In this document: positions 29,823 to 58,911 of the stretch, piece after piece
Position numbering within the stretch: position 1 is the first letter of the stretch
Layout of the letters: the number at the start of each line of letters is the position of its first letter
Assembly: GCF_021654855.1 (NCBI RefSeq)
Contig: NZ_AP024202.1
Location: 1,488,001-1,552,000, forward strand
Length of the DNA stretch: 64,000 nucleotides
From: Thiomicrorhabdus immobilis
GTDB taxonomy: Bacteria; Pseudomonadota; Gammaproteobacteria; Thiomicrospirales; Thiomicrospiraceae
Direction: 5' to 3'
Made by a program: the position numbers and the translations under genes
The notes under the pieces: model-generated
Told to the model about the DNA's origin: nothing
The model's input: only the letters and a program-made list of their open reading frames with translations
The model's database searches: none

Positions 29823-31853
29823 TTGACTGTGTCTCAACACTCTGCCAACCTTTGTTCTTCTCAAAACCTGGGGATTGCCTCTCTCCAAAGTTCAAGGTTT
29901 GCCGTTTTTTTAGCTTTAACTACATTACTGTTTTTAATAGCCCCTTCTGTTAAAGCGCAAACGGATAAGACCTTGATGAGTGAACAACAAAAAGATTTTT
30001 TGTTGGCATACGATGCAATCAAACGTAATGACCGTACAGCCATTGCTAGCTACAAGAAAAAGTTAAAAGACTACCCTCTAGCAATCTACATCACCTATCA
30101 TGACTATCGTATACACCTATCCAGCACCCCAAGAAAACAAATCAATCAATTTATCAAACAGAATAAAAATCATTATTTAGCGGATAAACTGTACACAAAA
30201 CTGCTTGTGCAACTTGCCTCAGAAAAGAAATGGACGACCTTTCTCAACAACTACAAACCGCAGAAAAGTCAGAACTTACAGTGTTATCACATTCAAGCAT
30301 TAGCTAACCGTAAACAGACAACTCGAGCCGTTACATTGGCTAAACCCATTTGGCAAAACTCCACTGAATTGAGTAGTGCCTGCCAGCCACTCGATAAACT
30401 GCTACGTGACCAGAAAAAACTCACCGGAACCATGATTTGGGAAAGAATCGAGTTAGCGATGAATAAACGTAAAACCAAGTTAGCCAAGAAACTCAGCCAC
30501 GATTTATCCAATAAAGATAAAGAGATGTTCAACTACTGGCTCAAAGTCTATAAAAACCCGCTGTTAATCGCCAAACCGTTACCTAAGAGCATATCGCCAA
30601 GTATCAAAAAGAAAATTTTTACTCAAGGCATTCGCTTTCTTGCCTCAAGAGATCCTGAACTGGCCGACACAAGCCTGAATAAGTTCTACAAAGACTATGG
30701 CTTAAATAAAGATCAATATGCCATCTTAAAACGTAAAGTCGCTCTAAGAAGCGCATACAAATACGCGCCACAAGCGGCCGATTTACTCAATGAAGTCAAC
30801 GGAAGTACCGCTAAAAGTGAAGATACCCTACGCTGGCAAGCCCAAATAGCCCTTAAGCAATCCAACTGGGCGAGTTTACTGGAAACCATTGACTTGATGC
30901 CGGCTGAAACCCAACAAGACAAACAATGGCTATACTGGAAAGCACGTGCTTTGGAAGCCGCTAAACAACAAAAGGAAGCGAATGATTTATATCAAAAGCT
31001 GGCTAAACAACGAAACTATTATGCTTTTTTAGCAGCCGACCGCTTAAAACAACCGTATCAATTCAACCCGAATCCGGTTCAAAAACGCGACACCGCTTAT
31101 CTGGTTAAGAAATACCCCGAACTACAAAGAATTCAGGAGCTAATGGCGATTGACTGGCCATTGAGTGCCAAGCGTGAATGGTACCAACTATTGAATCGTG
31201 TGAATCAGGATGAGCTTCAAGCCATCGCCGTCCTCGCCAACCAATGGGAACAGTATTCACAATCGATCCGCAGTTTAGCTAAAGCCAAAAAATGGCATGA
31301 TTTAGGTTTACGTTTCCCCACTCCGCATAAAGAACCGGTTATGCAAAATGCGGATAAAAATAAAATTGATCCTGCTTGGATTTACGGCATCATGCGCCGT
31401 GAAAGTGCCTTCTCAGAAGACGTTAAATCCTCGGTTGGTGCCGTTGGTTTGATGCAACTCATGCCTAAAACGGCAAAATACATCGGCAAGAAAATCGGAG
31501 TTAAAAAAGTCTCTTATACAGACTTGACCAAAGCGGAAAACAACATTGAGTTGGGCAGTGCTTATTTAAGTTATCTACACGACAAATATGATGGCAATAA
31601 AGTATTAGCCACGGCCTCCTACAATGCGGGGCCAAATCGTGTCGACACCTGGATCCCTAAAAATGGAACTCTGGCCGCCGACCAGTGGATTGACTCGATT
31701 CCATTCACCGAAACTCGTGACTATGTGAAAGCGGTTTTAGAATACACCACCATCTTCAAATCGCTTCTAAACAAGAAGTATGACCGTTTAGAGGACGTTA
31801 TGCCCCCTATTGGCGGAAAACCCGTTAAGCAAACCGACCCTCAACATCCATAA
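29823..31853 (+). CDS. slt: Soluble lytic murein transglycosylase
   Basis: 676 residues: a signal peptide (about 24-45, ending SVKA), a long alpha-superhelical U/L domain, and a C-terminal lysozyme-like catalytic domain with Glu527 in MRRESAFS, GLMQLMPKTA and TASYNAGPNRV. Works in the periplasm and complements mltD just upstream. The start is TTG 29823 or GTG 29829; neither has a strong ribosome site. Confidence 0.94.
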   Translation: MTVSQHSANLCSSQNLGIASLQSSRFAVFLALTTLLFLIAPSVKAQTDKTLMSEQQKDFLLAYDAIKRNDRTAIASYKKKLKDYPLAIYITYHDYRIHLSSTPRKQINQFIKQNKNHYLADKLYTKLLVQLASEKKWTTFLNNYKPQKSQNLQCYHIQALANRKQTTRAVTLAKPIWQNSTELSSACQPLDKLLRDQKKLTGTMIWERIELAMNKRKTKLAKKLSHDLSNKDKEMFNYWLKVYKNPLLIAKPLPKSISPSIKKKIFTQGIRFLASRDPELADTSLNKFYKDYGLNKDQYAILKRKVALRSAYKYAPQAADLLNEVNGSTAKSEDTLRWQAQIALKQSNWASLLETIDLMPAETQQDKQWLYWKARALEAAKQQKEANDLYQKLAKQRNYYAFLAADRLKQPYQFNPNPVQKRDTAYLVKKYPELQRIQELMAIDWPLSAKREWYQLLNRVNQDELQAIAVLANQWEQYSQSIRSLAKAKKWHDLGLRFPTPHKEPVMQNADKNKIDPAWIYGIMRRESAFSEDVKSSVGAVGLMQLMPKTAKYIGKKIGVKKVSYTDLTKAENNIELGSAYLSYLHDKYDGNKVLATASYNAGPNRVDTWIPKNGTLAADQWIDSIPFTETRDYVKAVLEYTTIFKSLLNKKYDRLEDVMPPIGGKPVKQTDPQHP

Positions 31854-31942: not shown

Positions 31943-31974
31943 AAAAAAAAACCCGAGTTGGACGACTCGGGTTT
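31943..31974 (-). terminator. Intrinsic terminator of the candidate sRNA
   Basis: Stem AAACCCGAGT (31949-31958) / ACTCGGGTTT (31965-31974), a 6-nt loop, and nine A (31943-31951) giving a U9 tract on the minus strand. Confidence 0.93.
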
Positions 31975-32031
31975 AAATACATTATCTCATTAGAAATAAT
32001 CAGAGGAGGATACTCATGAAGAAACATGAAT
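31943..32031 (-). ncRNA. Candidate small RNA with exposed CCUCCU
   Basis: Predicted ~89-nt transcript starting at an A at 32031, 7 nt below a perfect promoter, and ending in a U9 terminator. Reading 5' to 3': a hairpin AUUCAUG-UUUCUU-CAUGAGU, a single-stranded AUCCUCCUCUG, a weak AUUAU / AUAAU hairpin, and the terminator stem. CCUCCU equals the anti-Shine-Dalgarno core of 16S rRNA, so the RNA could block ribosome sites such as AGAGGAGG. No open frame of note on this strand. Lies about 205 nt past the cysS stop, with its own promoter. Known sRNAs with such motifs (RsaE, alphaproteobacterial cuckoo RNAs) are functional parallels only. Confidence 0.72.
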
Positions 32032-32037
32032 GAGCGA

Positions 32038-32066
32038 ATTATATTAGCATTTCCTTATCTTGTCAA
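32038..32066 (-). promoter_or_regulatory. Perfect sigma-70 promoter of the sRNA
   Basis: TTGACA (minus strand, 32066-32061), exactly 17 bp, then TATAAT (32043-32038). All 12 consensus bases match. Upstream lie an inverted repeat TTTTCT / AGAAAA (32081-32097) and a direct repeat AAGCAGTT twice (32104-32121), possible regulator sites. Confidence 0.88.
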
Positions 32067-32235
32067 ATATAAATAAGCCTTTTTCTAAATAAGAAAACTT
32101 AATAAGCAGTTTTAAGCAGTTGATTAAAATACATATTTTTTATAAGGATATTGCCCTACACCAGCCTAATACAGCAAGCTGTACAGCAAACCCTTATAAA
32201 CAGCGGGCTTTGTATTCCTAAAAAATTAACTCTTT

Positions 32236-33612
32236 TTATATCCTACGCCAAGTTGTTCCTTCCGCACTATCCAATAATTCAATCCCTTGTTCACTCAATA
32301 AATCACGAATCTCATCTGATCTGGCAAAGTTTTTTTCTGCTCTCGCCGTTTTTCTTTCCGCAATGTATTGTGCAATCATCTCATCACTTAAGTCGGAATC
32401 GCTGGGTTGTGATTTAAAGAAACTCTCGGCACTCTGTTCTAATAATCCAATTTGATTTGCCAACTTAACCAATAAAGCGGCCAGGCCTGGTTGTTTCGTT
32501 TTATTGACTTCTTTCGCCAACTCAAACAATACCGCAATGGCTTTAGGTGTATTGAAATCATCGTTCATAACGGCCATAAATTCCGCTTCGAACTCCGTAC
32601 CCTTCGCAGGCTCGATAAGTTCATTCAGCTCAACACTTTCTAAAGCCGAATACAATCGCCCAACACTCGCCTTCGCACTATTCAAATTCTCTTCGGAATA
32701 GTTCACCGGACTACGGTAATGGCTCGATAACAAGAAATAACGAATCACTTCTGGGTGATAGACTTTCAACACCTCTCGAATGGTAAAGAAGTTATTTAGT
32801 GACTTGGACATTTTCTCATCATCGATACGCACAAAACCACAGTGCATCCACGTGTTTACATAATGTTCACCTGTAGCGCATTCTGACTGGGCAATCTCGT
32901 TTTCATGGTGTGGGAAAGACAAATCCATTCCGCCACCGTGAATATCAAAATGGTTACCTAAACACTTGGTAGACATGGCTGAACACTCGATATGCCAACC
33001 TGGACGCCCATCACCCCAAGAGGAATCCCAACTTGGTTCATTCTCTTTGGAAGCCTTCCAAAGCACGAAATCCAACGGATCTTGCTTGACTTCATTAACA
33101 TCGACACGAGCGCCAGACTCAAGGTCATCAATATTTTTTCCGGATAAACGCCCGTATTCCGCAAAGGCTTTGACTTTAAAATAGACATCGCCATTGTCTG
33201 CCGGATAAGCAAAGCCTTTCTCTATCAAGGTTTCAATCATATGACGAATCTCATCCATATGCTCGGTCGCTTTTGGCTCCATATCCGGACGTAGCACATT
33301 CATCGCTTTTTCATCGGCATGCATCTCTTCAATCATACGTTCCGTTAAAGATTGAATGGACTCACCATTCTCTAAAGCACGTTTAATGATCTTATCGTCG
33401 ATATCGGTGATATTGCGCACATAATTAACGTCGTAACCCAAAGCTCTTAAATGACGTACAACCGTATCGAAAACCACCATGACACGAGCATGGCCGATAT
33501 GACATAAGTCATAAACCGTTACACCACATACATACATGCCTACTTTTCCAGGGTGGATTGGGGTAAAAACCTGTTTTGTACGGGTTTCCGTATTAAAAAT
33601 TTGTAGGCTCAT
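32236..33612 (-). CDS. cysS: Cysteinyl-tRNA synthetase
   Basis: Class I synthetase, 458 residues: zinc ligand Cys29 in [13 protein letters not shown] at 38-41, KMSKS in EKMSKSLNN (about 268), and a C-terminal helical anticodon-binding region. ATG 33612 has AGGA 5 nt upstream; the in-frame ATG at 33636 has no ribosome site. A palindrome copy (11/12) at 32480 encodes Gln-Pro-Gly-Leu in the variable C-terminal part. Confidence 0.97.
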
Positions 33613-33753
33613 AGTCTTCCTGCCGTGTCGTTTCATTTATGGGGTTTACGTTAAAAAGGCATGTAACATTGGGTACAGTATTAAGAACCGCACCAAGATG
33701 CTGACTCAATCCTTAAAATTAAGTTAGAAACTGTTCAGCCTATTTAACCTAGG

Positions 33754-52481: not shown

Positions 52482-52557
52482 TGGTGGGTCGTGAGCGATT
52501 CGAACGCTCGACCAATTGGTTAAAAGCCAACTGCTCTACCAGCTGAGCTAACGACCC
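52482..52557 (-). tRNA. tRNA-Lys (UUU)
   Basis: 76 nt including an encoded CCA. Acceptor GGGTCGT / ACGACCC, D-arm AGCTCAGCTGGTAGAGC, anticodon loop CTTTTAA with anticodon UUU, T-loop TTCGAAT. Identical to the copy at 52612-52687. Confidence 0.97.
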
Positions 52558-52611: not shown

Positions 52612-52687
52612 TGGTGGGTCGTGAGCGATTCGAACGCTCGACCAATTGGTTAAAAGCCAACTGCTCTACCAGCTGAGCTAACGACCC
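52612..52687 (-). tRNA. tRNA-Lys (UUU), second identical copy
   Basis: Same 76 nt with CCA encoded. It is promoter-proximal in a two-gene unit, 54 bp from the other copy. Confidence 0.97.
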
Positions 52688-58236: not shown

Positions 58237-58911
58237 TCAAACACTATGCGCTTGGCGGTGTAGAATTGTTAAAAACCCTTCAGAGAAGTTCTCATATTCG
58301 TTGAGCAGACGGTCGACTTTATTCGTTAAACGGTTATAGGCAATTACCGCTGGAATAGCGGCAAACAGCCCGATAGCGGTCGCAATCAACGCTTCTGAAA
58401 TACCCGGCGCAACCGCGGCTAAAGTGGCATGCTGGACGTCGCCCAATGATTGGAAAGCGTGCATAACGCCCCATACGGTTCCGAACAAACCGATATAAGG
58501 CGCCGATGAACCGACCGTAGCCAATAAAGACAGGTGGTTTTCCAATGCATCCGACTGTCTTGAAAAGGCAATTTTCATCGTTCTTTGGGCACCAGAAACC
58601 AAATCCGCCGCCTCTTGCACACCCTGTTGCTTTAAACGGGCAAACTCTTTAAAACCATCCGCAAAGATAAGCGCCAAACCCGCCGCATCATGGCGGTTAG
58701 ATTCTACTTGATGATAAAGGCTCGATAATTCTTGAGTTTCCCAAAATATTTTTTCAAACTGTTTGGCTTCACGTAACGCTTTACGGACTTGATAAGACTT
58801 TGCAAAAGCCACCGACCAAGCCGCTAATGACATGATGGCCAGCAACACCATTACCGTTTGCACTACAGGACTGGCCGTTAATATAATTTCAATTAAATCA
58901 CTATCGTTCAT
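58237..58911 (-). CDS. tolQ: Tol-Pal system protein TolQ
   Basis: ExbB-family inner-membrane channel subunit. 224 residues with three helices (about 15-37, 130-155, 168-195). PGISEALIATAIGLFAAIPAVIAYN holds the conserved Thr/Ser of the proton path. First tol gene. The usual ybgC thioesterase gene is not found between it and ruvB. Confidence 0.96.
   Translation of the reverse strand: MNDSDLIEIILTASPVVQTVMVLLAIMSLAAWSVAFAKSYQVRKALREAKQFEKIFWETQELSSLYHQVESNRHDAAGLALIFADGFKEFARLKQQGVQEAADLVSGAQRTMKIAFSRQSDALENHLSLLATVGSSAPYIGLFGTVWGVMHAFQSLGDVQHATLAAVAPGISEALIATAIGLFAAIPAVIAYNRLTNKVDRLLNEYENFSEGFLTILHRQAHSV

Follow-up and report, generated by a model that had tools for sequence, protein, structure and literature searches.

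A conserved small RNA gene of Thiomicrorhabdus and related genera with a porin translation-start site as its predicted target

The minus strand of the window, by which we mean the whole 64,000-nucleotide stretch of the Thiomicrorhabdus immobilis genome analyzed here, carries a small RNA (sRNA) gene, and this observation is confirmed as real. On the sequences compared, the conservation of the gene far exceeds chance. At a probability of roughly two in three, we read its product as a trans-acting, probably Hfq-dependent sRNA that would dock on ribosome-binding sites (RBSs), with the mRNA of an outer-membrane porin as its chief conserved target, in Thiomicrorhabdus, Hydrogenovibrio, Sulfurivirga, and their kin. 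With it, the Thiomicrospira-Thiomicrorhabdus-Hydrogenovibrio group gains an sRNA with a named, testable predicted target.

RESULTS

Anatomy of the sRNA locus

The genome from which the window is taken consists of one contig of 2,539,444 bases, and Thiomicrorhabdus is placed by NCBI taxonomy in the Piscirickettsiaceae, Gammaproteobacteria. The sRNA gene, recognized from its promoter-to-terminator anatomy and its distribution in the family, occupies 31943..32031 on the minus strand. A sigma-70 promoter of the form TTGACA-N17-TATAAT precedes it on the same strand at 32038..32066 (-35 hexamer at 32066-32061, -10 hexamer at 32043-32038), and both the sequence and a scan bear out the original prediction that this promoter is perfect, with agreement at 12 of 12 hexamer positions. 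The predicted RNA start is the A at 32031, 7 nt downstream of TATAAT, and the RNA would end in an intrinsic terminator (31943..31974, minus strand; supported by scan and alignment pair counts) that consists of a stem of 10 pairs (31974-31949) and a U tail; as the run of nine Ts ends at 31943, the RNA is 89 nt long. The start A at a distance of 7 nt, the length of about 89 nt, the 10-bp stem, and the U9 tail, all described beforehand, are present in the sequence. Between the two ends, on the minus strand, lie hairpin 1 (32012..32031; from RNA folding and alignment pair counts), within which CAUGAGU is paired, a near-invariant core and predicted seed, UUUCUUCAUGAGUAUCCUCCU (32004..32024; from the alignment), which includes CCUCCU at 32009-32004, and an A/U-rich hairpin 2 (31981..32000; from alignment pair counts). 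Upstream of the sRNA and on the same strand is cysS (cysteine--tRNA ligase; 32236..33636, minus strand; TIGR00435 above cut-off), and the convergent neighbor is a lytic transglycosylase gene that is slt-like and is here called slt (29823..31853, plus strand; Pfam SLT and SLT_L). A DNA search of the own genome returned a single match to the sRNA gene. From this anatomy and the conservation described below, we infer that the sRNA is transcribed. Elsewhere in the window, two tandem tRNA genes of identical score (72.5 bits) stand on the minus strand at 52485-52557 and 52615-52687.

Promoter and control region

The exact TTGACA-N17-TATAAT arrangement occurs once, at the sRNA, in 464 kb of own-genome sequence searched on both strands, and the same hexamers with a spacer of 16-18 nt occur three times in that sample. 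Of the 54 sRNA copies, 49 agree with the consensus hexamers at no fewer than 10 of the 12 positions, and the remaining five promoters, those of locus L031 and of the four copies in genus g2, match at 8 or 9. The promoter spacer contains an inverted repeat, TAAG-N6-CTAA (32044..32057, minus strand), which is a candidate repressor operator. The pattern TWAG-N6-CTWA (W, A or T) is found between the -35 and -10 hexamers in 32 of the 51 copies with a 17-nt spacer and is missing in the remaining 19, which include copies of genera g5 and g6. When promoter and operator were sought as one pattern in the own genome, the sole match without mismatches was the sRNA itself, and the other 12 matches, at 2-3 mismatches, were no excess over the 12 of the reversed control. 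The position of the spacer repeat suggests a repressor site, and a regulator acting there would presumably be a repressor. The original prediction had also pointed to repeats farther upstream as a sign of control; the direct repeat is indeed present in the window, at about 32100-32125, but nothing matching it was found in the listed upstream sequences of relatives. By eye, a set of genus g6 copies (L065, L067-L071, L074, and L076) has a common element of about TTATATTGGTATAAA just upstream of the -35 hexamer, and this element stands where the spacer repeat is missing.

Distribution and conservation

The DNA search detected the sRNA gene in 51 of the 62 genomes of the family. A covariance search of relatives, which the original prediction had proposed as a check, found it in the same 51 genomes, 50 of which match by construction, as the model was built from their copies. 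In a class-wide sample of 369 genomes, passed through strict filters that diverged forms may escape, four genomes match, all of the same family. The exact core 19-mer occurs in 25 stretches titled Thiomicrorhabdus, Hydrogenovibrio, Thiomicrospira, Sulfurivirga, Piscirickettsiaceae, or Thiotrichales. In the alignment of 50 copies, 19 of the 21 core positions are invariant and the other two are at least 90% conserved, and the sequences of the loops, stems, and terminator vary across these same copies. The surroundings are also kept: among the 50 primary loci, cysS adjoins the sRNA in 46 and slt in 45; 42 loci have both neighbors, and one of the loci lacking cysS is cut off by a contig end. Relatives keep the promoter, the CCUCCU segment, and the terminator as a set, and the gene therefore withstands the comparative test by which it was originally proposed that it could be refuted. 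Even with genus g2 counted in, no sRNA was detected in seven of the 62 genomes (G019, G037, G038, G039, G043, G044, and G045). In five of these cysS is present and the core is absent, at up to three mismatches, from the 941-1500 bases downstream of it, so that the gene may have been lost or moved there; in G019 and G044, the search likewise found no cysS.

Predicted fold and accessibility of the core

The predicted fold of a 92-nt piece has three hairpins and leaves UAUCCUCCUCU single-stranded between hairpins 1 and 2; its energy is -26.6 kcal/mol (z -5.2), which none of 200 shuffles equalled. The exposed segment UAUCCUCCU is flanked by two hairpins in this fold, and the earlier description of CCUCCU as exposed between two hairpins thus agrees with the predicted structure. 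Folding of 54 RNAs gave a consistent division of the core, in which CAUGAG is almost never single-stranded (mean unpaired 0.04), and UAUCCUC mostly is (mean unpaired 0.79, lowest 0.42). Over the alignment, 94.1% of cells in the structure are paired, compared with a shuffled mean of 86.6% (0 of 500 as high). Hairpin 1 is paired in 97.7% of cells with no pair changed on both sides, and its sole one-side-variable pair is kept in four rows and broken in four. Hairpin 2 is paired in 96.7% of cells, with one pair changed on both sides and three on one side, and the terminator has two-sided changes in eight of its nine modelled pairs.

Four genomes of genus g2 carry a form that both the DNA search and the covariance model missed. 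They contain AAGAGGATACTCATGAA, the complement of a core that ends in CCUCUU rather than CCUCCU, on a different contig from cysS, and as judged from the DNA, its RNA is shorter, at about 60 nt, and has a terminator and a promoter that is plausible but weaker. When the copies were folded from start sites estimated by eye, three of the four had a lowest-energy structure in which CAUGAG pairs with CUUAUG on its 3' side and UAUCCU lies in the loop; the fourth (G003) prefers a 5' partner for CAUGAG. In these modelled folds, the scaffold changes while the core sequence is kept, and the relocated form offers a natural experiment on where in the sRNA selection acts.

The porin as predicted target

The complement of the core is a complete translation-start region, from Shine-Dalgarno through AUG (AGGAGGAUACUCAUG). 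A wobble-aware pattern matched the own genome 24 times, compared with 11 times for the reversed control, which is not striking, and the 24 include the gene for a 455-aa outer-membrane porin (Porin_O_P). Its site, GAGGAUACUUAUG, forms 13 uninterrupted pairs with the core, including one G-U pair. By duplex energy, computed without mRNA structure, the porin RBS is the best of 385 genes from a 464-kb sample of the own genome, at -23.0 kcal/mol against a mean of -10.4 kcal/mol (SD, 3.5). Target prediction had been proposed with CCUCCU as seed; with the core, the porin comes out best. Scrambled cores, which keep CCUCC and CAU and shuffle the flanks, averaged -11.3 against the porin, and none of 300 was as good; the outcome was the same for tolQ, the pilin gene, and the presumed accB-like gene described below. 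As the real core beats these flank scrambles, the match exceeds a Shine-Dalgarno sequence plus an AUG.

Porin orthologues were fetched by protein similarity and were found in 32 of 60 genomes. Being chosen in this manner, their RBSs are unselected, whereas the own porin RBS was selected; loci chosen by their RBS (L200-L259, L261-L283, L164, L165, and L088) were excluded and identical RBSs were counted once. The 30 distinct porin RBSs, which include the own one and some paralogues, have a median of -17.3, and 21 of them reach -16 or better, compared with 26 of the 385 background genes (6.8%); the other nine are weaker. Controls lie at background, with medians of -10.4 for cysS (52 sites), -8.7 for slt (20 sites), -9.0 for ppiB (21 sites), and -10.5 for tolQ (11 sites), and ppiA (20 sites, -12.8) is slightly better than background (p 0.001). 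A flank-scramble z of -2 or below was reached by 17 of 30 porin, 12 of 39 pilin, and 8 of 124 control sites. The porin match persists down to 43% protein identity, and porin sites of genus g3 take other forms, such as GAGATGATACTTATGAA or GAGAAGAGGCTTATGAAGAAA, with pairing still strong. Two genus g2 porins that did not pass the cut, viewed apart, gave -17.8 and -10.6. Since the porin RBSs share ancestry, their p-values are not independent and overstate the independence of the sites. Taken together, the pairing comparisons make the porin a well-supported predicted target. The protein similarity search found no porin in 28 of the 60 genomes, including all nine of genus g6, and as the core is nonetheless conserved in g6, other targets must exist.

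Two further observations concern the porin genes themselves. The own porin gene (L261 1566-2565, minus strand) is preceded on its strand by two DsrE-like genes, of which one scores above the Pfam cut-off and the other just below it; these neighbors hint at a link with sulfur metabolism. In one genus g2 genome (L348), the porin leader contains ACTCATGAAGGAAA, which is complementary to the core in another register, one that puts UUUCUUC on the Shine-Dalgarno sequence.

Pilins and other candidate targets

The strict pattern AGGAGGATACTCATGAA, sought in the own genome at up to three mismatches, has one non-self match, whose position coincides exactly with the RBS and start codon of a gene of prepilin type. 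Self included, the pattern has two matches and the reversed control four; as the control gave four against this single non-self match, only the position of the pilin match is notable. The own pilin gene, outside the 385-gene sample, pairs at -20.6; six of the 385 sampled genes pair at least as well. Over 39 pilin sites, from which genus g5 matches first seen via the RBS pattern were excluded, the median is -14.2, with 12 at -16 or better. Pairing is good in G027, G031, G032, and G049, the genomes whose sRNA loci are most like that of the window, and in scattered others. Pilins thereby appear as a patchier, lineage-dependent candidate than the porin. In searches of 60 and of 20 chosen genomes, the strict pattern gave scattered hits among the matches listed; 60 of these were picked by eye and not at random, and among the 59 of usable length, five groups of related proteins recur.

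At the RBS of the gene at L299, which we take to be accB-like, pairing reaches -21.6 (own genome only). The tolQ gene (window 58237-58911; TIGR02796) was considered as a target and rejected: its -22.9 is second of the 385, but 11 relatives range from -7.9 to -15.9, two of the 11 have a z of -2 or below, and the match is lost at 83-92% identity, as expected of chance. By scrambled-core z in the own genome, tolQ (-4.8) outranks the porin (-4.2), yet its match is unconserved, so that single-genome ranks mislead; from one genome alone, target and chance are indistinguishable.

Small lipoprotein-like genes at L200, L201, and L202, in genera g3 and g7, have the identical RBS TGGAGGATATACATGAA, and the form in the own genome (L290) has a close RBS that pairs at -20.0, seventh of 385. 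The protein has no Pfam match. Having been found by their RBS pattern, L200-L202 are no test of conservation, and the small lipoprotein is a possible third target. Related proteins at L231, L232, and L233 (genera g6 and g7), MBL-fold-like by eye, have recurrent near-complementary RBS matches, and such a protein is a possible target where no porin was found.

DISCUSSION

The gene has the general attributes of an RBS-occluding sRNA, namely its own promoter, a seed, and an intrinsic terminator with a long U tail. In the mechanism that we propose, a strong sigma-70 promoter would drive the sRNA, and in the 32 of 51 copies that have the spacer repeat, a repressor could bind there. The open UAUCCUC(C) would dock on the Shine-Dalgarno sequence of selected mRNAs, after which hairpin 1 would open and pairing could extend through the start codon (CAUGAG, then UUUCUU). 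The resulting helix would block binding of the 30S subunit, and no ribosomes would load on the porin mRNA. The mRNAs of type IV pilin-like genes, as a second, lineage-dependent target, would be blocked likewise in some species, and the small lipoprotein gene may be a third. The U tail and the presence of an Hfq gene in the own genome (L293) fit an Hfq-dependent RNA, and Hfq would be expected to bind it. Repression of envelope genes is the most likely outcome of this pairing.

A broader reading, which we put forward only tentatively and with the odds against it, is that one ancient sRNA tunes the envelope of the Thiomicrospira group (porin and attachment pilins) under a dedicated spacer-binding repressor. 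Its core, being under extreme constraint, would on this reading have moved unchanged between hairpin scaffolds and genome positions.

It is also conceivable, if rather unlikely, that the sRNA is real but has its main conserved target elsewhere, the porin pairing being an ancestral coincidence. That the core hardly varies points to constraints that are many or strong; genus g6 has the core and no detected porin, and there are other recurring matches, to the small lipoprotein (including the own one) and the MBL-fold-like protein. Such a coincidence sits poorly, however, with a porin that ranks first of 385 by energy and whose match is kept to 43% identity, when the equally good tolQ match is lost among relatives of 83-92% identity.

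The original prediction held that the RNA could mask AGGAGG-type ribosome sites broadly, in effect as a general anti-Shine-Dalgarno decoy, a mimic of the 16S tail that damps such mRNAs generally and might, for instance, put a brake on growth. CCUCCU is exposed in the predicted fold, and a Burkholderia sRNA family (RF02278) is reported to suppress growth when overexpressed (PMC11722255). Broad masking nevertheless finds few sites to act on, as AGGAGG at -17..-3 is present in only 7 of 385 sampled own-genome RBS regions and 6.8% of these genes pair with the core at -16 or better. Conservation extends past CCUCCU, genus g2 has CCUCUU in its place, and the porin RBSs pair with the 16S tail at about background (mean -6.65 versus -6.07). 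A conserved unit that is longer than the hexamer and includes the complement of the start codon is better explained by specific extended pairing, best with a porin gene, and we regard the decoy as improbable. A CCUCCU motif, then, need not mean a general anti-Shine-Dalgarno decoy, and what the cross-genome comparison favors is extended pairing with a single envelope gene.

Next to no weight can be given to a tiny plus-strand gene with AGGAGGATACTCATGAAGAAA as its ribosome site and the minus-strand RNA as incidental or its antisense: the core complement is a well-spaced RBS and start codon, from which 23 of 54 copies read MKKHE and a stop, but the other 31 end differently, after 4 to 38 residues, and it is the minus strand whose promoter and terminator are conserved. 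A peptide encoded by the sRNA itself was rejected, as the first ATG is lost in the three genus g5 copies and the frame enters the terminator.

Comparison with known systems

The original prediction had recognized no named family, and Rfam likewise gave no match at threshold at the window locus, nor at the loci of three other copies. A search at E up to 10 listed 32 matches, and those below threshold are weak and have their best alignment in the terminator. The top scores belong to RF02278 (28.5 bits against a gathering cut-off of 50) and anti-hemB (RF02837; 27.7 against 49.5). The envelope sRNAs MicA, RybB, MicL, MicC, MicF, and VrrA lower porins or a lipoprotein by pairing at or near the mRNA start, and the sigma-70 type of the promoter here counts as a difference from them. 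MicC (20.0 bits against 90), MicF (17.7 against 79), and VrrA (14.7 against 50) fall far below their cut-offs, and MicA, RybB, and CyaR (whose accession we take to be RF00112) are absent among the 32 matches.

According to PMC11795201, ACCACC of the enterobacterial sRNA CyaR pairs with GGUGGU of ompX at the Shine-Dalgarno sequence and impedes ribosome binding. The likeness is that an exposed segment pairs with the Shine-Dalgarno sequence of an outer-membrane protein mRNA, which here is a prediction; the difference is that the core described in this work reaches over the start codon as well. For S17/bdhR1, the Betaproteobacteria toxic sRNA of RF02278, a preprint (PMC11722255) describes 27 nt that various Betaproteobacteria share without change and targets at or near RBSs, many of them transporter-related; S17S is there described as cut from a long form by RNase E, whereas here the promoter adjoins the sRNA. 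NmsRA and NmsRB of Neisseria, as documented in PMC5362039, have a UC-rich anti-Shine-Dalgarno sequence between stem-loops 1 and 2 that represses several mRNAs. They are set apart by this description, rather than by sequence comparison, through two anti-Shine-Dalgarno motifs, sibling copies, and TCA-cycle targets, and the sRNA described here has one own-genome locus and one CCUCCU motif. The alpha-r14 or cuckoo RNAs of Alphaproteobacteria, according to PMC10746234, have an ultraconserved anti-Shine-Dalgarno motif in unpaired regions, with three hairpins each exposing CCUCCUCCC; here, in contrast, a single CCUCCU lies between hairpins 1 and 2, and the sRNA has an AUG-complementary stretch.

A literature search by title and beginning of abstract, with subscription papers mostly outside its reach, returned no sRNA of Thiomicrospira, Hydrogenovibrio, Thiomicrorhabdus, or Piscirickettsiaceae. 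By the tests run, the sRNA is a member of none of CyaR, NmsR, S17/bdhR1, and alpha-r14; the RBS-occluding kind to which it belongs is known, and the family is new.
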